Shown piece after piece: positions 17,721 through 42,495 of a DNA stretch of 64,000 bases; within the stretch, counting starts at the first letter, position 1; the number at the start of each line of letters is the position of its first letter. The DNA comes from an uncultured Anaerolineae bacterium (GTDB lineage Bacteria; Chloroflexota; Anaerolineae; Aggregatilineales; Phototrophicaceae). The stretch spans positions 1 through 64,000 of the forward strand of contig CALDYP010000012.1 in the NCBI GenBank assembly GCA_937944445.1, given 5' to 3'. The notes beneath the pieces were generated by a model. The model saw only the letters and a program-made list of their open reading frames with translations, did no database searches and was not told the DNA's origin. A program made the translations under genes and the position numbers.

Positions 17721-18551
17721 TTAATGTTTGTTTAGCCAGTCGATCATCTCTTGGATGATGGCCTCGCGCCCACGCTCGTTGACCAATTCATGGCGCAGCC
17801 CCGGGTAGGTGCGCAGCGTCTTGTCGCTGGTGCTGGCCTCGCGGTGGATGAAGTGCGCGCCGCTGATGGGGGTGAGTTGATCGTCCTCGCCGTGCATCAC
17901 CAACAGCGGGATGGCCAGCCGATGCGCTTTGCTGCGGATGTCCCGCCCGAGTTCGATCAACTGGTGCACCATGCCCACGCGCAGCCGCTGATGGTCAACC
18001 AACGGGTCGGCCTCGTAAGCGCGGACGGTCGCGGCGTCAGTGCTGAGCGTGTCGGTCGGCAGCGAGGGCACAAGGCGCAGCATCGGCAGGCGTGGCCCCA
18101 GTAAGCGCACTGCCGCCAGTGACACCGCGGGCTGCCCCTCGCCCAATGTGATGACCGTGCCCGTCAAGATCAGGCCGCGCAGCTCGCTCTGATAGGCCAG
18201 CGCGTACTTGAGCGCGATGCCGCTGCCCATGCTGTGGCCGTAGAGGAACACCGGCAGGCCGCGATGCTGCCGGACGAACTGCTCGTACAACTGGCGCAGG
18301 TCAGCTACAGGCTGATCGAAGCTGGCGAAGAAGGTGCGCGGGCCGCCGCTGCGGCCATGCCCGCGATGATCGGGCGCGATCACCAGATAGCCGGCCTGCG
18401 CCATCGCCCGCCCCACGTGGTCATAGCGCAGGCCGTGCTCGCCGATGCCGTGGACGATGAACACCAGCGCGCGCGGCGGCTCGTTGGGCGTCCACGTATG
18501 ATAGTGAAGCGTCAACCCGTCGCGGGTGGTGAGTTCTGCGCTGGCGTACAT
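17721..18551 (-). CDS. Alpha/beta hydrolase, monoacylglycerol lipase/lysophospholipase type
   Basis: The 276-aa product has the oxyanion block FIVHGIGEHGLRY, the nucleophile elbow GHSMGSG, an acid near MHGEDDQLTP and a terminal LRHELVNE His, so the triad is complete. The first block and spacing fit the Hydrolase_4 (monoglyceride lipase) family. No signal peptide is present, so it is cytoplasmic. ATG at 18551 is chosen because GAGAGG precedes it and the upstream in-frame codons overlap the FHA gene. It follows that gene by 11 bases and is probably the last gene of the clpC-kinase-FHA operon. Confidence 0.88.
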   Translation of the reverse strand: MYASAELTTRDGLTLHYHTWTPNEPPRALVFIVHGIGEHGLRYDHVGRAMAQAGYLVIAPDHRGHGRSGGPRTFFASFDQPVADLRQLYEQFVRQHRGLPVFLYGHSMGSGIALKYALAYQSELRGLILTGTVITLGEGQPAVSLAAVRLLGPRLPMLRLVPSLPTDTLSTDAATVRAYEADPLVDHQRLRVGMVHQLIELGRDIRSKAHRLAIPLLVMHGEDDQLTPISGAHFIHREASTSDKTLRTYPGLRHELVNERGREAIIQEMIDWLNKH

Positions 18552-18562
18552 GGGACTGCCTC

Positions 18563-18958
18563 TCAAAACGACAGCGGCGGGTCGAGCCGCAGCCACGTTC
18601 GGCCGATGCGAAAGAGCGTCCCCGGCCGCAGGCTCACGCGGCCAATTACCGGCCCGTCTTCTTTTTCGATGAACGTCCCGTTGCGGCTGTCCACGTCTTC
18701 CAGCCAGAACATCAAGATGCTCGGTTGGCTGGTGTTGTCGACGGCGGTCACAGGCCGCGCCGAGCAGATCAAGCGGGCGTGGACGCGCGACACCTGATGA
18801 TCGAACGGCAGGTAGATGTCGCAGCCCTCGCGCCGCCCGATGACCAGCGTCGCCTCCTCGCCGATATCGGGCTGGGGGAACATCAACGATTTGCCATCGA
18901 GCGGCCCGCTCATGAAGGTGATTGCAATGTCAGGACGGGATTTGTTGCGTTTGGTCAT
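18563..18958 (-). CDS. FHA-domain (phosphothreonine-binding) protein
   Basis: The 131-aa protein is almost entirely one forkhead-associated domain: VIGRREGCDIYLPFDHQVSRVHARL contains the conserved GR and SRxHA residues, and VEDVDSRNGTF-like LEDVDSRNGTFIEKED contains the phosphopeptide-contacting SxNGT. There is an insertion of about 15 residues between the His strand and the NGT strand. FHA domains bind phosphothreonine, and the gene overlaps the kinase gene by four bases, so it is a likely reader of that kinase's targets or of its autophosphorylation. Confidence 0.93.
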   Translation of the reverse strand: MTKRNKSRPDIAITFMSGPLDGKSLMFPQPDIGEEATLVIGRREGCDIYLPFDHQVSRVHARLICSARPVTAVDNTSQPSILMFWLEDVDSRNGTFIEKEDGPVIGRVSLRPGTLFRIGRTWLRLDPPLSF

Positions 18959-21900
18959 TTCGAGTCATCTCCCAGCTCGCGCTGGACGGCGTTCAGACGC
19001 TCCCGCGATAAGACGTGGTTGGGGTCAATCGACAGCGCTCGCTCCAGCGCGTCTATGGCGTCCTCAAGCTGGCCGCAGCTTGCGAGGCTGTCCCCGTAAT
19101 TGTACCAAAACCAAACGGACTTGGGATCGTAATAGACGGCCCGCTGATAAGCGGCGAGCGCCTCACCAAAGCGCTTGAGCTTCATCAAGCACAGCCCCTT
19201 GCCGTTCCACGCCCAAGCATAGGTCTCGTCTAACGCCAGCGCGCGATCATAACTAGCGAGGGCCTCCTCATAGCGGTTGAGGCGGCGCAGCGCGTGGCCG
19301 TGACGTGCCCACACGTTGGGGTTGGCCGCGTCAACCATCAGCGCACGTTCGATCACCGCCAGCGCTTCGGCTGCTTGGCCGCTGTCGAGCAGCAGCGTCA
19401 TCAGGTTGATGTAGTACCACGTCACTTGCGGGTCGTGCTCGATGGCCTGCTCATAGCAGCGGCGCGCTTCCTCGTGGCGGCCCAGCGCGCGCAGCGCCAG
19501 CCCCATGCCGTTCCAGCCCCAACTGTTGGTCGGCTGGAGTTCGACCGCGCGCTGATAGGCCTCAACGGCTTCATCGTACTGGCCTAAGTTGCGGTGAGCC
19601 TGCCCCAGCTTCACCCAGCTCTCCACGTGGTCTGGGGCAATGCTCAGCGCTTCCTTCAAGGCGGTGACGCTCTCATGGCTGCGGTTGAGCAGCAGCAGCT
19701 CATCGCCGTAGCTGTACCATGACCAGACATCGCGCGGGTCGATCTGCACCGCCTGCTCGAAACAGGCCAGCGCCTCCTCGTGGCGTTTCATCGCGCTCAG
19801 TGTCAGCCCTTTGCCATACCACGCCCACGTGTACGCTGGCTCCAGCGCGATGGCCCGTTCGAAGCTGCTCAGCGAGGCGTCAAACTGGCCGAGCTTGCGC
19901 TGCACTTGGCCCAGCTTGGCCCACAAGTTGGCGCTGCGTTCGTTCAAGCGCAGGGCATACTCCAAGAGCTTGAGCGCTTCCTCATTGCGGTTGAGCTGCA
20001 CGAGCATCTCGGCCTGCTTGTAGAGGTGCGACACCTGATGGCGGTCAATCGCAAACGCGCGGCCATAGGCTTCTTCCGCCCGCGCGTACTCTTTCATCGC
20101 CTCGTGGGTGCTGGCTAGCTCGCTCCACGTCCACGCTTGCTGAGCGTCGTGCTCAAGCGACGTTTGCAGCGCCGCTAACGCCGCGTCGAACTGGCCAAGC
20201 TGACGGCGAATGCTGCCCACCAGCGACCACGCCCGCGCGAAGTCTCCGCGGCGGCGCAGCGCTTCTTCCAGCATGACCAGCGCCTCTTGAGGCCGACCAA
20301 GCTGATAGAGCATGTGGCCGCAGTTGTACCAGTGCCACTCACGTTCAGGGTTGATGGCCGTGGCCTGCTTATAGCACTCCAGCGCTTCCTCGTAGCGTTC
20401 CATGTTTTCCAGCACCAACCCGCGCCCGTTGATCGCCCAATCGAAACCCGGATCCAGCTCAATAGCACGGTCATAAGCTTGGAGCGCCTCTCCGTGGCGG
20501 CGCAGATAGCGCAGCACTTGGCCCAGCTTGCCCCACGGCGCAGCTTGATCGGGCGCGAGGCGCGTCGCCTCTTGCGCCGGGTAGAGCGCGTCCACGTAAC
20601 GCTGCATCTCGACCAGCGTCTCAGCGAGGTTGTACCAATGCCAGACGACTTGCGGCTCATAATGCGTCGCGCGCTTGAACGCCGTCACTGCTTCCTCAAA
20701 CTTGCGCATGACCTTAAAAGTCAGGCCGAGGCCGTTGTAGGCCCATGCGTAGGTGGGTTCGAGCTTCAAGGCCTGCTCATAGGCTTGAACAGCGGCGGGC
20801 AAGTTCTGAGTTACGCGGTAGATCTTGCCGAGCTTGCCCCACGCTTGATGGTTGCGCGGGTCGATCTCCAGCGCAGTTTGCAGGCTCGCAACAGCTTGAT
20901 CTGGCTGCCCCATGCGAAATTGTAGATCGCCGAGGTTGTACCACGCCCACGTGTCGTTGGGGTCAAGCTGCACGCTGCGCTCGAAAGCGTCTAGCGCGCG
21001 CGCGTTCTGGCGCATGCGGTCGTAGATGATGCCTAACCCGTTCCACAGCCAGCCGTCTTCGGGCTGCAAGTCGAGGGCGCGGTGGTATGACTCTAGCGCG
21101 TCGTCGTAGCGCTCCAACAGGCGCAGCGCGCGCCCGCGCCGCCCCCAATAGCGCGCGTTATAACTGTTGATGGCGATGGCTTGGTCATAGGCCTCCAACG
21201 CTTCACTGTAGCGCCCTAGCTCGGTCAGGCTGTAGCCTTTGTCGATCAGCTCACGCGCTTCCAGCGCTTGGCCATCAGCCGCCAGCACGGGCAGCGGGCC
21301 GATGTGCGCCTCATACAACCGAGATAGCTGTTCCACCAGCGCTGACCAACTCGCCGGGCGGCGTTCGGGCGTTTTTTGCAAGCACGAATCGAGCAGCACT
21401 AGGAACTCACTCGGAAGGGCTGTCAGCGATTTCAGGGCGTAATTGGGCGTGACGCTGGTGTGCTGATGCTGCCATTCGGTCATGGTGCGCCCCTTGAACG
21501 GCGGCTGACCCGTCAGCATCTCGTAGAGCATACAGCCGAAGGAGTAAATGTCCGCGCGCAGGTCAATCGTGCGCGCGGTGAACTGCTCGGGCGACATGTA
21601 AGGCGGCGTGCCGACGAAAGCATGCGCGCGCGTCAGGCGGTCGTCGTGTTCCCCGCTGGCGTCATCGATGATCCCGTACTCAGAGGCTGGCTCTAACGAG
21701 CGCACGAGGCCGAAGTCCGTCACTTTGGCGATGCCGTCGTGCGTCACGAGGATATTGCCGGGCTTCAAGTCCCGATGCACCAGCCCGGGGATCTTCTGGG
21801 TGGCGTGCTGCATGCCGAGCGCGACATGGATGGCGAACAGCAGCGTCTTGTCCAGCGTCAGGCGGCGGTGCTCGATCCAACTGCGCAGGTCGACGCCCAA

Positions 21901-22992
21901 GCCTTCCATCCCGCTGATGTGTTCCAACATGATGTGCGGCCGGCCGAGGATCTTCTGCACTAGCAGCGCGCGGACGATGTGCAGGTGCTTCTCCAAGCGC
22001 ACCCACGTCAGCGCCTCTTGCTCAAAGCGGGCCACAGCGCGCTCGTTGTCCATAAAGCGCTTCTGAAAGCTCTTGATGGCAATCGGCATGCGCTGCTCGT
22101 GGTCGTAGCACAAGTAGACCACGCCCATCCCGCCCAGCTTGATCTCGTAGACCTCATAGCGCCCCTCGATGCGGTCGCCGACTTGGAAATCCGTCTCAGA
22201 GGCCGCAGGGCGCGCGGGGTGATGTTCGCCTGAGGGTGTCTTGCTGATGCCGTCGTCAGCGCTCAGCTCGATCGAGGCCAGCGGCAGCTCGTTCTCGGTG
22301 CGTTCAAACGCTTCCTCGGCGTTGGCCGAAGTGAGCGTTTGCTCGGCTGTGTTGAGGATGGCCTGACGGGCGGGGAGATTGGTTGAGGAAAGATTCGACA
22401 GTTCGTCGAAGCTCGTGTCATAGGCTGGCGCGTCGTCGCTGAAGGCGGTTGCCTCGTCGAACTGGGTTTCGCCGCCGGTCGTCGTAGAGACTTCGGGGCG
22501 GCGCGCGGCGTAGAGCGCCAGCAGCGGCGCGGTCATCTCACGCGACACTTTCAGGGTTGGCAGCATGTCTTCCCCATCTGACGCTGCCACCCACAGCCCG
22601 ACGGCAAGGTTGCGCTGGGTGGGGTAGGCTCGGGCGGCTTCGAGCACCCAATGCGCATAGTCTGCGGCGGCCCGCTGCGCCTGCGCGCGGTCAAATTCAG
22701 TCGGGGCTTTTTGCTCGGCCCGTCGATATGCAATCAGCGCTTTGCCGACGTAGAGGATCAGCAGGCGCTGGTTGTTCAGCCATGAGCGCTGCGCGCACAG
22801 ATCGCCTAACACAAAAGCGTAATCCACTTGATCGGGCTGGCGCAGCGCCAATTGGCCAATCAGGCGGATGTCAGGGTCGGGGTCGCTGGCAAACGGGTCG
22901 AGCGTGTCGGCGCTGTGGCGCTTGCGCAGCAAGGCGCGGCGCTCGGCCTCGGTCAGCGTGGGGAGGGTGCGGCGGCTCTGTGGTGGTCTCAT
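18955..22992 (-). CDS. Giant cytoplasmic Ser/Thr protein kinase with about 20 TPR repeats
   Basis: The 1345-aa protein has an uncharacterised N-terminal region (1-270) rich in Thr/Ser/Glu after residue 165, and a Hanks-type kinase domain at about 279-560. In the kinase are KLGGMGVVYL, K307, HRDLKPGN at 406-413, DFG at 426-428 and PPYMSPEQ, so it should be active. Residues 580-1340 are an almost uninterrupted run of 34-residue TPRs with the W-x2-L-G-x-Y and A-x4-P pattern. No transmembrane segment is seen, unlike most bacterial PknB-type kinases. The start overlaps the upstream clpC-like gene by four bases, and the FHA gene follows with the same overlap, indicating a tightly coupled signalling operon. 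Confidence 0.93.
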   Translation of the reverse strand: MRPPQSRRTLPTLTEAERRALLRKRHSADTLDPFASDPDPDIRLIGQLALRQPDQVDYAFVLGDLCAQRSWLNNQRLLILYVGKALIAYRRAEQKAPTEFDRAQAQRAAADYAHWVLEAARAYPTQRNLAVGLWVAASDGEDMLPTLKVSREMTAPLLALYAARRPEVSTTTGGETQFDEATAFSDDAPAYDTSFDELSNLSSTNLPARQAILNTAEQTLTSANAEEAFERTENELPLASIELSADDGISKTPSGEHHPARPAASETDFQVGDRIEGRYEVYEIKLGGMGVVYLCYDHEQRMPIAIKSFQKRFMDNERAVARFEQEALTWVRLEKHLHIVRALLVQKILGRPHIMLEHISGMEGLGVDLRSWIEHRRLTLDKTLLFAIHVALGMQHATQKIPGLVHRDLKPGNILVTHDGIAKVTDFGLVRSLEPASEYGIIDDASGEHDDRLTRAHAFVGTPPYMSPEQFTARTIDLRADIYSFGCMLYEMLTGQPPFKGRTMTEWQHQHTSVTPNYALKSLTALPSEFLVLLDSCLQKTPERRPASWSALVEQLSRLYEAHIGPLPVLAADGQALEARELIDKGYSLTELGRYSEALEAYDQAIAINSYNARYWGRRGRALRLLERYDDALESYHRALDLQPEDGWLWNGLGIIYDRMRQNARALDAFERSVQLDPNDTWAWYNLGDLQFRMGQPDQAVASLQTALEIDPRNHQAWGKLGKIYRVTQNLPAAVQAYEQALKLEPTYAWAYNGLGLTFKVMRKFEEAVTAFKRATHYEPQVVWHWYNLAETLVEMQRYVDALYPAQEATRLAPDQAAPWGKLGQVLRYLRRHGEALQAYDRAIELDPGFDWAINGRGLVLENMERYEEALECYKQATAINPEREWHWYNCGHMLYQLGRPQEALVMLEEALRRRGDFARAWSLVGSIRRQLGQFDAALAALQTSLEHDAQQAWTWSELASTHEAMKEYARAEEAYGRAFAIDRHQVSHLYKQAEMLVQLNRNEEALKLLEYALRLNERSANLWAKLGQVQRKLGQFDASLSSFERAIALEPAYTWAWYGKGLTLSAMKRHEEALACFEQAVQIDPRDVWSWYSYGDELLLLNRSHESVTALKEALSIAPDHVESWVKLGQAHRNLGQYDEAVEAYQRAVELQPTNSWGWNGMGLALRALGRHEEARRCYEQAIEHDPQVTWYYINLMTLLLDSGQAAEALAVIERALMVDAANPNVWARHGHALRRLNRYEEALASYDRALALDETYAWAWNGKGLCLMKLKRFGEALAAYQRAVYYDPKSVWFWYNYGDSLASCGQLEDAIDALERALSIDPNHVLSRERLNAVQRELGDDSK

Positions 22993-25415
22993 GGATGTGC
23001 TGCGAGCTGGCTAAACGTCAGGGTGTCGCCGTCGGCGCTGGCGACGATGCTGCCGCCGGGCGAGAAGGCATCTTGCAAGATCAAATTGCTGAGCGGGCGG
23101 GCCAGCAGGCGCTCAACGGCGCGGCGCAGCGGGCGCGCCCCGTTCACCGGGTCATAGCCCACGCGCAGCAGCAGATCCAACGCGCTCTCGTCGAGCGTCA
23201 GCGTGAGCTTCTGCACGCTCAGGCGCTGGCGCAGCTCGCTGAGCTGCAAATCGAGGATTTGCGCCAGCACGGGGCGCGTCAGCGGTCGGAAGGTGACGAT
23301 CTCGTCCAGACGGTTGAGGAACTCTGGACGAAAGTGCTGCTTGAGGTAGGGCGTGAAGTCCGGCGCGGGGGCGCCGTCGGTGTGCTGGCCGAAGCCTAAT
23401 GACTTGGCGTTCTCGCGCGTGCCGATGTTGCTCGTCATGATGAACACGGCGTGGCGCGCGTCGACCGGGCGACCGTGCGCGTCGCTCAGGCGGCCTTCGT
23501 CGAAGATCTGCAAGAACAAGTCGAACACCTCCGGCGCGGCTTTTTCGACTTCATCTAGCAGCACGACACAGTACGGGTTGCGGCGCAGCCCATCCGTGAG
23601 TTGGCCGCCGCGGTTGCTCTCTTTGTAGCCCGGGGGCGAGCCGATCAAGCGGGCGACTGTGTGGCTGTCGTGGAACTCGCTCATGTCAAGGCGCAGCATG
23701 GCGTCCTCTTTGCCGAAGAGAAACTCCGCCAGCGCCTGCGCGAGCTGCGTCTTGCCCACGCCCGACGGCCCGACGAACAAGAACACCCCTAGCGGTCGAT
23801 CCGGGTCGTTGAGTCCTGCCCGTGCCATCCGCACGGCCGCCGCGACGGTGTGTACCGCTTCACTCTGGCCGATGACGCGCCGCTCCAGCGCGGCCTCTAG
23901 CCCGATCAAGCGGCGCTTCTCGTCCATCGACAGCTCGTTGATCGGGATGCCTGTCCACTCTGCTAGCACCTCGACCACGTCACGCGGGGTGACCTCAAGC
24001 GTCTGCTCGGCGTCGTCAGGTGAGAGGGAGCGGATGACGACGCGCGCGCAGGCTTCGTCTAACAGGTCGAGCGCTTTGTCGGGCAGGCGGCGATCTGGTA
24101 GGTAGCGCACGGAGAGTTCAACGGCCTGTTCGATGGCCTGCTGGTCGATCTTGACGTTGTGGTGTGCCTCCAGTCGGCTGCGTTGGTCACTCAGGATCAA
24201 GATGGCCGCGGCGGGGGACGGCTCATTCACGTCAATCGTGCGGAAGCGGCGCGCGAGGGCCGGATCTTGGGCGATGGCGCGCCGATACTCTTCATGGGTG
24301 GTCGCGCCGATGCAGTTGATCTCGCCGCGGGCCAGCGCCGGCTTGAGGATGTTGGCCGCGTCAAGGTTGCTGTCGATGGTGTCGCCCGCCCCGACGATGG
24401 TGTGAATCTCGTCGATGAACAGGATGATCCGCCCGCTGCGCTTGACCTCCTCAACGATGCCGATGAGGCGTTCCTCAAACTGGCCGCGCAGGCTCGTCCC
24501 AGCGACGAGCGTGCCGATCTCGATCTGCACGATGCGTCGGTCAAGCAGCGGGCGCGGGGCCGTCCCGTTGGCGATGGAGTAAGCCAAGCCTTCCACGATG
24601 GCGGTCTTGCCGACGCCGGCATCCCCTAGCAGCAGCGGATTGTTCTTCTTGCTGCGGGCGAGCGTGCGCGCCAACGCGCGGATTTCCGTGTCGCGGGCGA
24701 TGGCGGGGGAAAGCTGGCCGCTGCGGGCTTGCGCCGTCAGGTCTCGTCCGTAGCGATCCAGCAGCGGCGTCTCTGAGTCGGAATGCTTGTAGTGTTCGCG
24801 GTGTTCGGCAAGCCGCTGCTCCAACCGCTGCCTAAGCGGTATGTTCCGAATTTCATCACTGTCGATTAATTCTAATCCGTCGAGCAATCCTCCCTCAGAG
24901 AAGGGGTCGTCCAGTGCCTCAAAATCAAGTTCGTCCAAGTCCGGCGGCGGGGACATTTCCTCCTCTTGGCAGTCCTCGCTCAATATGCGCTGTAACCATA
25001 GGTTGACGTCTATGCCGAGTTCAATCAGCTTGCGCACCGGCAGGCTTTCCCCCTCTTGCAAAATCGCCATGAGCACGTGCCGCTCACGAACCTCGCTGGT
25101 GTCTTGATCAGCGAGGAAGATCGCAATCGACAGTACCATGTCACAGCGCGGCGTGAGCGGCAGCACCTCGCCGGGCTGATCTTCCGACATACCCACCTCC
25201 TGCCGAATCGCACGGCGGACGTGGCGTGGGCTGAGTTTCGCCCGGCGCAGCCACTGGTAGGTGTCCCCTTTGTCGTTGCGGGTCAACGCGATAAAGATGT
25301 GTTCAACGCCGATGTAGTTATGACGCAGGCGGCGCGCTTCCTCCGCAGCCTGCGAGAGAAATTCATGGCATTTCTCTCGAATTTCGTTCTCTGGCAGCTC
25401 AGGCGACAGCGACAA
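22989..25415 (-). CDS. ClpC/ClpA-type double AAA+ unfoldase lacking a full middle domain
   Basis: The 808-aa protein has an N-domain (1-145, RHNYIGVEHIFIAL), an acidic linker (147-192), then two AAA+ modules: Walker A GDAGVGKT at 264-271 with Walker B ILFIDEIH, and Walker A GPSGVGKT at 549-556 with VVLLDEVEK. Between modules only about 20 residues (456-475) replace the ClpC middle/UVR region. LGF at 673-675 lies where ClpC carries its VGF ClpP-docking tripeptide, so proteolytic pairing is possible. The start is TTG at 25415 with GGAG 8 bases upstream. It heads an operon with a Ser/Thr kinase and an FHA protein. It is not ClpB, whose long coiled coil is absent. Confidence 0.9.
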   Translation of the reverse strand: MSLSPELPENEIREKCHEFLSQAAEEARRLRHNYIGVEHIFIALTRNDKGDTYQWLRRAKLSPRHVRRAIRQEVGMSEDQPGEVLPLTPRCDMVLSIAIFLADQDTSEVRERHVLMAILQEGESLPVRKLIELGIDVNLWLQRILSEDCQEEEMSPPPDLDELDFEALDDPFSEGGLLDGLELIDSDEIRNIPLRQRLEQRLAEHREHYKHSDSETPLLDRYGRDLTAQARSGQLSPAIARDTEIRALARTLARSKKNNPLLLGDAGVGKTAIVEGLAYSIANGTAPRPLLDRRIVQIEIGTLVAGTSLRGQFEERLIGIVEEVKRSGRIILFIDEIHTIVGAGDTIDSNLDAANILKPALARGEINCIGATTHEEYRRAIAQDPALARRFRTIDVNEPSPAAAILILSDQRSRLEAHHNVKIDQQAIEQAVELSVRYLPDRRLPDKALDLLDEACARVVIRSLSPDDAEQTLEVTPRDVVEVLAEWTGIPINELSMDEKRRLIGLEAALERRVIGQSEAVHTVAAAVRMARAGLNDPDRPLGVFLFVGPSGVGKTQLAQALAEFLFGKEDAMLRLDMSEFHDSHTVARLIGSPPGYKESNRGGQLTDGLRRNPYCVVLLDEVEKAAPEVFDLFLQIFDEGRLSDAHGRPVDARHAVFIMTSNIGTRENAKSLGFGQHTDGAPAPDFTPYLKQHFRPEFLNRLDEIVTFRPLTRPVLAQILDLQLSELRQRLSVQKLTLTLDESALDLLLRVGYDPVNGARPLRRAVERLLARPLSNLILQDAFSPGGSIVASADGDTLTFSQLAAHP

Positions 25416-25495: not shown

Positions 25496-26692
25496 TCAGT
25501 TGGTGCCACCCAATGGCAGCGTGGGCAGGGGCGCGTCCGTCACCACACCCGCCGGCGGCAGGCTGGCCACGAGAAACGCCACCAGCAGCACGACCACCAC
25601 CAAGCCGACCAGCGCAATGAGCAGGGCGGCACGGCTGCTGGCTGGCACAGTGGGCAGTTCTTGGCGCGCGTTCTCCAGCAGCCAGCGCGTCATCAAGGCG
25701 GATTGCAGGCGCAGCGGCTGGCGCTGCGGGCGCAGGATGTGCCGGAACTCAAGGCCGCGCAGTTGGGCGGCGATGGCCGTTGTGTCCATCGGGTTGTCGC
25801 TCTGCGCCAGCCAGACCTCCACCGCTTGCGCGGTGATCTCACGGGTGGGCGCGTCGTGCAGCAGGTTGGTGATGGCCGTCAACACGACGCGCTCATCCCG
25901 GCTGAGGCGGTTCCAGCGGCAGCGCAGCGCGGCTTGGCTGCGGGCGTAGACGTACTCCAGCGCGTCGTCGGGGGTGTCCCCGCGTTGGATGGCGTCGACC
26001 AAGTCGTTGACTTGGCGCGGCATCCCGCCAGTTTCGAGGTAGGCGCGCTCGGCCAGCGCTGGCGGCACATACTCCAGCCGCGCGCTCAGAAGCTGCTCCA
26101 CCTCCAACCGCCCCAACGGGTTGAGCCGCAAGACGTGGTTCGGTTGAATCAGCGGGGACAGCGCGTTGAGGTGGGGGCTGTCCTCGTCGGCGCTGGTGAT
26201 GATGCTCAAGAAGGGGAAGGCCAGCGCCAGCTCCAGCAGATAGGCGGGGTGCGTGGGCGGGATCTTGCCCTCGCTGATGGCTTGGCCCATCAAGTGGATG
26301 TCGTCGAACAGCCAGATCACCCGCGCCTGCTGCCGCACATGCTGGCCGACGGTGGGCAGGAACACATCCCCCAACCAACGCGGCAGGTCACCAGCATTCG
26401 GCGCGGGCAGGCGGGCCGTGGCAAGGTCTTCGCGCTGAAGCGCTTGCCGTGTGGCATCAGCCAGCGCTTCTAGCCACGTGTCAAGGTTGGTGACGTGGTA
26501 GGGCGTGAGGGGCATCAGCACGCACACAAACCGCGGGTCGAGCGTGGTGATGCGCCGCAGCAGCGCGGAACGCCCCATCCCCTCCATGCTCTGGATAGAC
26601 AGAGCATAAGTGGCCGGCGCGTTGAGGAACTGGCGCAGCTCCGCCAGCAGCGCCTCACGACCGATAAAAGGGGGTGTCGTACTCTCGTTCAT
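25496..26692 (-). CDS. Membrane-anchored P-loop (AAA/STAND-like) protein with degenerate Walker A
   Basis: The 398-aa protein begins with FIGREALLAELRQFL, the start of STAND/Orc1-like ATPase domains. The Walker A segment is SMEGMGRSALLRR, where the invariant Lys is Arg. Walker B is present as VIWLFDDIH, and a winged-helix-like region follows (LSRDERVVLTAITNLLHD). One strongly hydrophobic segment near 358-382 is followed by a roughly 20-residue Pro-rich tail, so the bulk is cytoplasmic and the tail outside. ATG at 26692 begins the FIGRE domain at the expected distance; there is no Shine-Dalgarno but TATAGT lies 7 bases upstream, suggesting a leaderless mRNA. Function is unknown; ATP binding may be impaired. 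Confidence 0.8.
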   Translation of the reverse strand: MNESTTPPFIGREALLAELRQFLNAPATYALSIQSMEGMGRSALLRRITTLDPRFVCVLMPLTPYHVTNLDTWLEALADATRQALQREDLATARLPAPNAGDLPRWLGDVFLPTVGQHVRQQARVIWLFDDIHLMGQAISEGKIPPTHPAYLLELALAFPFLSIITSADEDSPHLNALSPLIQPNHVLRLNPLGRLEVEQLLSARLEYVPPALAERAYLETGGMPRQVNDLVDAIQRGDTPDDALEYVYARSQAALRCRWNRLSRDERVVLTAITNLLHDAPTREITAQAVEVWLAQSDNPMDTTAIAAQLRGLEFRHILRPQRQPLRLQSALMTRWLLENARQELPTVPASSRAALLIALVGLVVVVLLVAFLVASLPPAGVVTDAPLPTLPLGGTN

Positions 26693-26699
26693 GATGATG

Positions 26700-26705
26700 A
26701 CTATA
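26700..26705 (-). promoter_or_regulatory. Candidate -10 box placing transcription start at the ATG (leaderless)
   Basis: TATAGT on the minus strand ends 7 bases before the ATG at 26692, so transcription would begin at or next to the start codon. No ribosome binding site is present in the intervening bases. The -35 region is weak. Confidence 0.4.
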
Positions 26706-26784
26706 GCGGGATTTGTCTTTTGTGCCACTGCGGAGGAGAAGTGCCACCCTTGAATCTCCGCGGCCATTGATTGACAACTCAGGG

Positions 26785-38604: not shown

Positions 38605-41600
38605 ATGGACGTCGGCACTGTCATCGGGGAACAGTACACGATTGTTGAGCACATCGGGCGCGGTGGCATGGCCGATGTGTGGTCGGCACGCGACGCGCGG
38701 CTGCGGCGCATGGTGGCCATCAAGACGATTGCCGTCGGCCTGACGCGCGAGATCGACCCCGTGAAGATGTTCCGCAGCGAGGCGCAGACCATCGCCAGCA
38801 TGGAGCATCCCCATATCCTGCCGATCTACGACTTCGGCGAGCACGCGGGCAAGCTCTACATCGTGATGCGCTTCGTCACCGGCGGCTCGTTGGAGCGGCG
38901 CATCACGGGGCCGATCCCCCCTGATGAGGTGCTGCGCATCGGCGAGGCGGTGGCTTCCGCGCTGGACTACGCCCATCAGAACAAAGTCATCCACCTTGAC
39001 CTCAAACCCCCCAACATCCTGATGGACAGCGTTGGCTCGCCCTATTTGGCTGACTTTGGCCTTGCGACCGTGCTCGACCCGGAGGGGCGCGCGCGCAACC
39101 CCGGCAGCGGCACGCTGCTCTACATGGCCCCGGAGCAGCTCACGTCGGAGATCATCGACCGCCGCGCCGACATCTACAGCTTTGGCGTGATGATGTACCA
39201 CATGCTGGCCGGCAAACTGCCCTACGACGGCATGATCCCGCTGGCCCTGCGGCAGATTCAATTCGGCGACGTGCTGCCCGCGCTCAGCGAGAGCGTGCCC
39301 ACCCTGCCGGACGCGCTCACGGAGGCGCTGCGGCAGGCCACCGCCAAAGACCCCGCTCAGCGCCCGCCCACCCTTCACGCAGTAGTGGACGCCATGCGCG
39401 CCGTCCTCCAGCCGAGCACACCAGTGAGTATCGGGCGCGCCCTCGACACCGCCGAGTACGCCCTGCTCGACGCCGTCAACGCCGAGTTGGGGCGGCTGGC
39501 CGCGCTGGGCGACCGTGACCTGCTGGAGGCCGTCGACATCTACACGCGGGCGCGGCACAACTGGGCGGGTGGGCAAGGCCGCTTCTTGGTGAGCTTGACG
39601 CACTTCCTCATCATGAGCAGCTACTACCAAGATGCGCGCCGCTATGACCTATCGGTAGACCGCATGGGGTATCAGATGCTGCTGCGCGGCGCGCTGGAGT
39701 ACGATACCGACCTTGACGTGTGGTGGGCCTTCAACAGCGACGACGACCGCCGTTGGGTGTGCTTGCACACGCTGCGCAGCGGCTCCACCCCGGCGCGGAT
39801 TCGCGCGCTCTACCGCCTTGAGACGCTGCCCGACGACCCCAAACAGCCGACGATCCCGCGGCTGGTGGCGCAAGCGCTGGAGATCGAACCGGATGAAGAG
39901 GCGCGGCTCGCCATGCTGCAAGTCCTGACGACGCGCGCCCAACTGCTAAAAGACGCCAGCACCTACCAAATCCGCTCAGAGTTCATGGGGCGGCTTGTCA
40001 CGACGATGACGCGCTTAGGATTAGAGGTGCGCCCGCCCACCGTCTGGCGCGACCCAGTCTACACGCCGGAGATCGACCTCATGATCGCGCAGCAGGCCTT
40101 CGACGAGGACGCGCCGCGCGTGGCAGAGGCGGCGGCGCGCAGCATCGGGCGGATGCGTTCGCTGGTGGGGGTGCGCCACTTGGCCAACGAGCAGCGGCGC
40201 AAACGGCCCGGGGCGCTGCAAGCGCTGGCGCTGGTGCGCGATGAAGTGCCAGAACTGCCCGAGGTCGTCAGCGTGCAGGGGCGCGCCTATGCGTGGCTGG
40301 CCAACACCATCCGCCGCCTGACCGACCGCCCGCTCGATTTGATCCTGCGCTTCACGCTGGCGCTGCTGGGCGGCTGGATCGCCTTCGGCCAGCACATCTA
40401 CTCCACCTACTTCTCGATTGCACTCTTCACGCCGCAGCGCTGGGGCAACGCCATTGCGTCGGGCTTGACGATGGGGGTGTTCATCGGGCTGCTCGTGCTC
40501 GTGACGGACGAGTTCTCGCAGCGGCTGCGCGGCTTCTGGGCGTGGTGGCTGCGGCTGCTGATGGCCAGCGCCCTCGGGGTGGGCGTCGGGGTGCTGACGT
40601 GGGCGGCCTTTCGCTGGTTCTACAGCGGGCGCATCCCGGCGTGGGATCTGATGCGCTTAGGCGGGGCCGGCTTGGCGTTGGGCTTTGTGCTGGTCAGCGT
40701 GACGCGCTGGCCGCGCTGGCGGGCGCTGTGGCTGCCGGCGGCGCTCATCTACTTCCCGATTGCGCTCTCTTACCCCAACGACTGCCTACAAGACTTCGCC
40801 TGCTACTTCGCTGATGGCTCGATCTGGCTGCCTGCGTTCAACTACTTCCCCGTGGCGGGGATCGGGCTGGCGATCGGGCTGCTGGTCGGGTGGTTCATCC
40901 CGCGCAAGCGCGACGGCGAGCCGCTCATCCCGCTGCCAGATCGCGCCAAGATCGCGCTGGCGGGCGTCGCAGGGGCGCTGTGGTGCGCGCTGGTCTGGGT
41001 GATGTACGTCGGGGTGTTCCGTCAGGATTTCATCACCTACGACCACATCACGCTGTGGTTCTTCGGCTCGCTGGGGGTGGGGCTGCTGACGGCAGTGCTC
41101 ATGCAGCGGGCACAGGCGCTGGCCTTCGGCGGCGTGGGGCTGGCGGCGTTTGCGCTGCTGGCGCTCATCAGCACGCAGGCCGTCTTCGGGACGATCGACG
41201 CGCTAGGGATGGACTACTTCGAGCCGGCGGCGTTCGTCGCGCCGCAGAAAGAGCTGGGCGTCGACGGCGACCGCGACGCGCTGTTGAGCTATCTCTACCC
41301 GCCGCAGCTGCTCACGGTGGGCCTGCCGATGGTGTTCGTGATTGCGCTGGGGGCGTATGTGCAGCCGACCTATGCCGCGCTGGCCGCGTTCATCGGTCAG
41401 CCGCAGGTCAAGCGCCGCGGGCGTGAAGCGTGGCTGACGGGTGTGCTGCTCTACACGCTGTTCATGAGCGGGTTCATCAGCGTGTTCGCGCTGTTTTCGA
41501 TCCACGTCAACGTGTGGTACGGCCTGCTGTGGAGCTTGTGGGGTTTCTTGACCTTCGTCGCGGCGCTGGCGGCGTGGCGTTGGGCGCGCTGGGGGGCGCG

Positions 41601-42495
41601 GGCGCTGCTTGGGATGGGCGCGCTGCTGGTGGTTGGCGGAGTCCTCTTCGACCTGATGCACATCCTAGAGCCGCTCAGCCGCAGCCGTCCCGCCCCGCTG
41701 CTGGAGCCGTCGGCGCTGTGGGCGTGGGGCGCGTGGAGCGCCGCGCTGGGACTCTTCGCGCTTGGGGCGCTGCGCCGACAGCTCTGGGGGGGGATTGGCC
41801 TGATCGGGGTCATCGCGGCGTGGTATGGGCTGGCGATCTTCGGCGTGCTGCCGAGTTTCGCGCTAGGGCTGGCGCTGGCGCATCTGGCGCTGGTGGCGTT
41901 CGCCTTGCAGCCGCACATGGCTAACATGGAAGCGGGCCGCCTGCGCGCGTCGCTGGCCAACCTGCGGCCTGCGCCGTCCCCCACGCCGAGCATCGCCCTC
42001 AAAGATCGGGCAGTGGCTGCGCCCGCGGCTGTGCCCACGCTGCTCGACCTGCCCACTGACGTTCAGCAGCCTGAGACGCTCCCGCTGCCAACGCAGACCA
42101 TCGAACTGGAGGGGACGCCGCCCGCTGCGCCGCCGGCCACGCTGCCCGCTGACATGCTGGCGACTGTCCCGTTGGGCGATGAGCCAACCCCCGTCAAGCC
42201 CGCCGAGCCGTCCGCCCCGACACAGCTTGACCCCGCTCCGCCATCCGCTGCCCCGCGCGTCAAAGTTGAACTCAGCGGCCTGAAAGAGCGCGCTGCCCCC
42301 ACGGAGGCCAAGCCCGCCGCGCCGCGGGTCAAGATCGACACGAAGGGGTTGAAAGAGCGCGCCGCCCCGACAGAGGCCAAGCCCAAGCTCAAATTCGACG
42401 CGAGCGCGCTGCGGCGTGAGCCGCCGCCCATACAGGTTCAGCCCCCGCTTGAAGCGCCGAAAGACGACGACGAAACGGACGACGACCACTCGTAG
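38605..42495 (+). CDS. Polytopic membrane Ser/Thr protein kinase (non-RD)
   Basis: The 1296-aa protein has an N-terminal kinase domain (1-270) with GRGGMADV (18-25), K40, HLDLKPPN (130-137; the usual Arg before the catalytic Asp is Leu), DFG (150-152) and MAPEQ. Residues 280-560 are helical, possibly HEAT-like. About 560-1120 contain roughly twelve hydrophobic segments. The C-terminal 180 residues are cytoplasmic-looking, Pro/Ala-rich and charged, with two tandem 23-residue units (PRVK....GLKERAAPTEAKP) and an acidic end. Catalytic residues are intact, but activation-loop control should differ from RD kinases. Its stop codon TAG is part of a dispersed hairpin. Targets are unknown. Confidence 0.9.
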   Translation: MDVGTVIGEQYTIVEHIGRGGMADVWSARDARLRRMVAIKTIAVGLTREIDPVKMFRSEAQTIASMEHPHILPIYDFGEHAGKLYIVMRFVTGGSLERRITGPIPPDEVLRIGEAVASALDYAHQNKVIHLDLKPPNILMDSVGSPYLADFGLATVLDPEGRARNPGSGTLLYMAPEQLTSEIIDRRADIYSFGVMMYHMLAGKLPYDGMIPLALRQIQFGDVLPALSESVPTLPDALTEALRQATAKDPAQRPPTLHAVVDAMRAVLQPSTPVSIGRALDTAEYALLDAVNAELGRLAALGDRDLLEAVDIYTRARHNWAGGQGRFLVSLTHFLIMSSYYQDARRYDLSVDRMGYQMLLRGALEYDTDLDVWWAFNSDDDRRWVCLHTLRSGSTPARIRALYRLETLPDDPKQPTIPRLVAQALEIEPDEEARLAMLQVLTTRAQLLKDASTYQIRSEFMGRLVTTMTRLGLEVRPPTVWRDPVYTPEIDLMIAQQAFDEDAPRVAEAAARSIGRMRSLVGVRHLANEQRRKRPGALQALALVRDEVPELPEVVSVQGRAYAWLANTIRRLTDRPLDLILRFTLALLGGWIAFGQHIYSTYFSIALFTPQRWGNAIASGLTMGVFIGLLVLVTDEFSQRLRGFWAWWLRLLMASALGVGVGVLTWAAFRWFYSGRIPAWDLMRLGGAGLALGFVLVSVTRWPRWRALWLPAALIYFPIALSYPNDCLQDFACYFADGSIWLPAFNYFPVAGIGLAIGLLVGWFIPRKRDGEPLIPLPDRAKIALAGVAGALWCALVWVMYVGVFRQDFITYDHITLWFFGSLGVGLLTAVLMQRAQALAFGGVGLAAFALLALISTQAVFGTIDALGMDYFEPAAFVAPQKELGVDGDRDALLSYLYPPQLLTVGLPMVFVIALGAYVQPTYAALAAFIGQPQVKRRGREAWLTGVLLYTLFMSGFISVFALFSIHVNVWYGLLWSLWGFLTFVAALAAWRWARWGARALLGMGALLVVGGVLFDLMHILEPLSRSRPAPLLEPSALWAWGAWSAALGLFALGALRRQLWGGIGLIGVIAAWYGLAIFGVLPSFALGLALAHLALVAFALQPHMANMEAGRLRASLANLRPAPSPTPSIALKDRAVAAPAAVPTLLDLPTDVQQPETLPLPTQTIELEGTPPAAPPATLPADMLATVPLGDEPTPVKPAEPSAPTQLDPAPPSAAPRVKVELSGLKERAAPTEAKPAAPRVKIDTKGLKERAAPTEAKPKLKFDASALRREPPPIQVQPPLEAPKDDDETDDDHS
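42253..42390 (+). repeat. Two tandem 69-bp coding repeats in the kinase tail
   Basis: Units at 42253-42321 and 42322-42390 encode 23-residue copies sharing PRVK and GLKERAAPTEAKP; a third, partial unit (KLKFDASALRRE) follows. Synonymous differences between copies show they are not very recent. Confidence 0.85.

Follow-up and report, generated by a model that had tools for sequence, protein, structure and literature searches.

A Clp unfoldase, a TPR kinase and an FHA protein encoded as a conserved gene trio in Chloroflexota: a candidate phosphothreonine-dependent route to proteolysis

Introduction

In the window (the whole stretch of 64,000 nucleotides analysed, from a contig of an uncultured Anaerolineae bacterium), a ClpC-like unfoldase, a soluble Ser/Thr kinase rich in TPRs and a stand-alone FHA protein are encoded by overlapping genes. 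Do the three act together, and might the unfoldase degrade what the kinase marks? The well-established phospho-degradation tag of bacteria is phosphoarginine. If this reading is true, a second phospho-degradation route would exist, built from a conserved kinase, a phosphothreonine reader and an unfoldase that keeps a ClpP loop, and it would suggest a testable account of how type VI secretion came by the same parts. The literature search, which covered open-access papers, returned no Clp–kinase–FHA module outside type VI secretion.

Organisation of the locus

Four genes were confirmed, all on the minus strand: the Clp unfoldase (22989..25415; 808 aa, TTG start), the kinase (18955..22992; 1345 aa), the FHA protein (18563..18958; 131 aa; Pfam FHA, 4.2e-13) and a lipase-like alpha/beta hydrolase (17721..18551; Pfam Hydrolase_4). 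The TTG start of the Clp gene is matched by orthologues that begin at the corresponding residue. The Clp and kinase genes overlap by four bases, as do the kinase and FHA genes, and the ATG of the hydrolase at 18551 lies 11 bases beyond the FHA stop; coordinates and Pfam assignments thus agree with the original prediction for both junctions and for the position of the hydrolase. Gene calls were based on ORF length, and the genomes compared are MAGs; the source genome is a 3.2 Mb assembly of 92 contigs (81% complete).

The hydrolase was rejected as a core member, since it is weakly conserved and many relatives lack it or have a replacement, and is regarded as a neighbour. The trio is often accompanied by an AAA_16-like ATPase (25496..26767, minus strand) whose C-terminus bears a TM helix. 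KIN2, a kinase with a single TM segment that in many relatives lies divergent to Clp, was likewise discarded as a fixed fourth member, since the family of its ectodomain extends beyond the trio and the source genome has only weak matches. Positions 38605-42495 of the window encode another Ser/Thr kinase, 1296 aa long, in which Pfam matched the kinase domain only.

Conservation and co-occurrence within the order

The loci of 40 relatives and a further 57 kinase loci from named genomes were examined, some genomes being present in both sets. The gene order Clp–kinase–FHA recurred across both. In the second set, Clp lay at most 1.5 kb upstream of the kinase at 40 of 49 testable loci and FHA at most 500 bases downstream of it at 38 of 47; the complete order, which the original prediction had proposed for checking across relatives, was conserved at 27 of 39.

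Co-occurrence was scanned in 61 genomes by using thresholds of >700 bits for the Clp orthologue and >120 bits for the FHA orthologue, the kinase being detected via its N-terminal domain. The Clp orthologue was present in 46 genomes, 44 of which had the kinase and 44 the FHA orthologue; the 15 Clp-negative genomes contained neither (0/15 each; Fisher p 1.9e-12, computed without correction for descent). The exceptions were G002, in which FHA follows Clp and a kinase was not found, G027, whose contig stops inside the kinase, and G029, which is 75% complete. All three genes were retained, though unlinked, most clearly in G003, G007, G011, G016, G038 and G042, with 118 kb between Clp and kinase in G007. 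Presence and absence also alternate within genera: the trio is found in G000 and none of its genes in the congeneric G001, and in a second genus G048 and G053 have the trio and G058 has none of the three. Joint loss of an operon can be a single deletion event. A functional link that joins the kinase and the FHA protein to an unfoldase bearing a ClpP loop is well supported by this co-occurrence and by the recurrence of the trio in other phyla described below.

Kinase loci of the Chloroflexota type were also found in records titled Pleurocapsa minor and Rhodobacteraceae (L147, L132), which are likely mislabelled or misbinned.

The Clp unfoldase

The Pfam domains of the unfoldase are Clp_N, AAA, AAA_lid_9, AAA_2 and ClpB_D2-small. 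Its N-domain (residues 9-145; 24981..25391), the predicted adaptor docking site, consists of high-pLDDT helices in the AlphaFold model and is followed by an acidic disordered linker to D1 (residues 147-213; 24777..24977; pLDDT <50 at 148-193 and 202-212). At the position of the ClpC middle domain there is only a short D1 segment (residues 456-486; 23958..24050). Its 31 residues, counted between DKALDLLDEA and WTGIP, compare with 29-36 in the orthologues measured, and with 83 in two ClpC proteins and 149 in ClpB of the same genome; between the D1 landmarks the model contains only helix 446-463 and then helix 477-488, with no extra helices. The middle domain is absent from this Clp, as had been claimed from its sequence.

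The predicted ClpP-docking tripeptide LGF (residues 673-675; 23391..23399) lies in a flexible segment of the model (668-680). The earlier assignment of this loop is borne out by the orthologues, 39 of 39 of which keep xGF. The source genome has one clear copy of ClpP.

The kinase and its phospho-motifs

Pfam assigned Pkinase and TPRs to the kinase. A conserved all-helical N-terminal domain, here termed kNT (residues 1-165; 22498..22992), precedes a variable linker (residues 162-268; 22189..22509), the kinase domain (21313..22170; VAIK lysine, HRD, DFG) and a TPR superhelix (18988..21267). An orthologue of kNT gave no Pfam match, and a fold search against the PDB returned nothing significant. 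The catalytic residues were invariant in 16 aligned orthologues. No TM segment was found in 30 kinases of this type, and the TPR number was estimated at ~22 by length (770 aa/34), so that the earlier description of a soluble protein of 1345 aa with about 20 TPRs stands.

The pre-kinase linker is hypervariable in sequence yet bears motifs resembling phosphothreonine sites (GGETQFDE at residues 173-180 in the window). ET[RQ] occurred 18 times in 24 such linkers versus 1.85-1.95 in shuffled sequences, an approximately tenfold excess. The excess was repeated in 19 other kinases (13 versus 1.33 expected), although these are relatives of the first set and kinship makes the shuffles overstate independence. 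No clear excess was seen in the rest of the kinase, in kNT, in the Clp linkers or in the juxtamembrane region of KIN2. The suggestion that the acidic linker of Clp is the phosphosite was not upheld: ET[RQ] was found in none of 33 Chloroflexota Clp linkers, and the enrichment sits in the pre-kinase linker.

In bacteria of another family in the same phylum, kNT is joined to a few TPRs and no kinase is present (L099:8625-9698, L098, L100, L101).

The FHA protein

The phosphothreonine-binding residues of the FHA protein (GR, SRxH, SxN) occupy invariant alignment columns, by which the phosphothreonine pocket is judged to be intact. Across 23 orthologues no conserved Thr precedes the FHA core, and the protein has no conserved N-terminal phosphosite of the ETTS type.

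In the source genome, an FHA paralogue adjoins a Clp_N-TCAD9 protein without AAA domains (L080:5234-7461, on G000:C3). The same pair is present in G001, which has no trio. This arrangement fits a pairing of FHA with Clp_N.

Occurrence in other phyla and phylogeny of the unfoldase

A scan of named genomes identified the trio in a Vicinamibacteria MAG (order kinase–Clp–FHA) and in an Opitutia MAG (two kinases–Clp–FHA). Among the best Clp matches in 247 genomes of the phylum of the former there were one trio and two Clp–FHA pairs, and among those in 289 genomes of the phylum of the latter one trio; the distribution of the trio in these two phyla is sparse. At ~45 other Clp loci from these scans no FHA gene was found within 1.5 kb. 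The kinase of the Vicinamibacteria trio (L165:113-2857) carries two zf-C4_ClpX zinc domains at its N-terminus (1.3e-30), and motifs of the TRLAG/TRLG type occur in both the kinase and the Clp linkers of the two trios.

Trio Clps from the three phyla formed one branch (support 96/91) within a wider clade (98/99) that also contained L200, L183 and L232. L200 adjoins an FHA gene, L232 follows a PP2C gene, and L183 is the same gene as L191:6493-9423, which encodes in a Nitrospirae MAG a Clp whose C-terminal part is a guanylate cyclase domain. L194, which overlaps an FHA-like gene, and L203, with an FHA gene upstream, had earlier taken the same place in the tree, on long branches. The trio clade was separate from ClpA, ClpB/ClpC and ClpV; ClpV had a supported clade of its own, and ClpA-type sequences split off at 100/100. 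ClpV appeared as sister of the trio clade (94/88) in one tree with two ClpV sequences; this placement was abandoned, as ClpV had no stable place in two later trees, the earlier of which included a bad ClpV fragment that was then dropped and the later of which held four ClpV sequences.

Proposed mechanism and alternatives

A cytosolic module for signalling and proteolysis, in which a phosphothreonine-dependent adaptor route replaces ClpS or MecA, is a serious possibility, though we would put it a little below an even chance. The TPRs of the kinase would hold clients or a signal; the kinase would autophosphorylate Thr in the ET[RQ]-type motifs of its own pre-kinase linker and would also mark clients; the FHA protein would bind these phosphothreonines, whether in the kinase linker or on clients, and bridge to the Clp N-domain, handing the clients over; and Clp would unfold them into ClpP. 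Three precedents point this way: PknG recruits its FHA partner through an autophosphorylated N-terminal Thr (PMC8546545), recruitment of ClpV needs Fha1 (PMC3953482), and the clients of ClpCP are marked by McsB (PMC8370763). On the pattern of these systems, FHA docked on the kinase linker or on phosphorylated clients would bring clients to the Clp N-domain. The original prediction of phosphorylation-guided selection thus retains its functional link and loses its Thr sites in the Clp linker, while we infer, more cautiously, that clients would be selected by phosphorylation and then degraded.

The likeness to McsB–ClpC–ClpP of Bacillota lies in a kinase and a Clp that share an operon, and in kinase marks that there send clients to the protease (PMC8370763); that system differs in using an arginine kinase, in having no FHA protein and in a ClpC that keeps its middle domain. 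ClpC itself shares the xGF docking loop with the present Clp, which lacks the D1 middle domain. ClpA–ClpS–ClpP has two AAA domains without a middle domain and a ClpP loop, as here, whereas ClpA-type proteins form the separate clade noted above and no ClpS was found in the source genome (81% complete). It is more doubtful that a bacterial pathway of phosphothreonine-directed proteolysis exists in more than one phylum, with FHA as the adaptor that brings Thr-phosphorylated clients to a dedicated Clp–ClpP protease, and possibly with an ancestor in common with the kinase–FHA–ClpV set of type VI secretion.

That latter set suggests a different use of the same parts. PpkA–Fha–PppA–ClpV also combines a Ser/Thr kinase, an FHA protein and a Clp ATPase (PMC3953482), and in one T6SS locus the FHA gene tagH directly follows tssH; kinase and FHA might assemble and place Clp, without proteolysis, as a remodelling motor that dismantles a complex, in the manner of PpkA and Fha with ClpV. 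The tree that set ClpV beside the trio clade would have favoured this, but the position did not hold once more sequences were added. The xGF loop of all 39 orthologues is lacking in two ClpV sequences read, the kinase here is a soluble TPR protein, and the marker VipB/TssC was found in none of 31 genomes of the order (E. coli control positive), the source genome included, in keeping with the earlier statement that type VI secretion does not explain the set. We consider a remodelling motor unlikely. A circuit in which kinase and FHA are the output and Clp only clears the phosphorylated kinase or FHA, ending the signal, is less likely again. It draws on PknG–GarA/OdhI of Actinobacteria, in which FHA inhibits enzymes and which resembles the present set in its soluble kinase with a TPR C-terminus, its variable N-terminal region with Thr sites (here a disordered linker with pThr-like motifs as candidate sites) and its small stand-alone FHA protein (PMC8546545). 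That system has no Clp, however, and most PknG proteins have a rubredoxin domain, none being found in this kinase; moreover, the FHA partner here is without the conserved N-terminal ETTS-type site, and Clp–FHA pairs occur without a nearby kinase in G002, L200 and L203.

The overlapping operon layout could also reflect shared regulation of three stress proteins that are co-transcribed and not physically coupled. This appears improbable, given that the genes co-occur even where unlinked, that the kinase is fused to ClpX zinc domains in one phylum and that the FHA paralogue of the same genome is paired with a Clp_N-TCAD9 protein. TCAD9 is named after ternary complexes that belong to conflict systems. 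This domain name in the paralogue pair, together with PADLOC kinase models that resemble the kinase, would be compatible with a conflict or defence system having Clp as its effector arm, but the PADLOC matches are confined to domains of a generic kind (kinase, TPR and AAA) and none concerns FHA, and the chromosomal neighbourhood is stable across a family; we regard a defence role as very improbable indeed.

Related gene arrangements

In other Chloroflexi a kinase gene is followed by one for a shortened Clp-like protein (L168:2617-4203, L170:6369-7904, L172:8677-10236), which in L170 has lost Walker A. On a contig of a Lokiarchaeota MAG (L163:1-3210), an FHA-TIR protein adjoins a TPR kinase.
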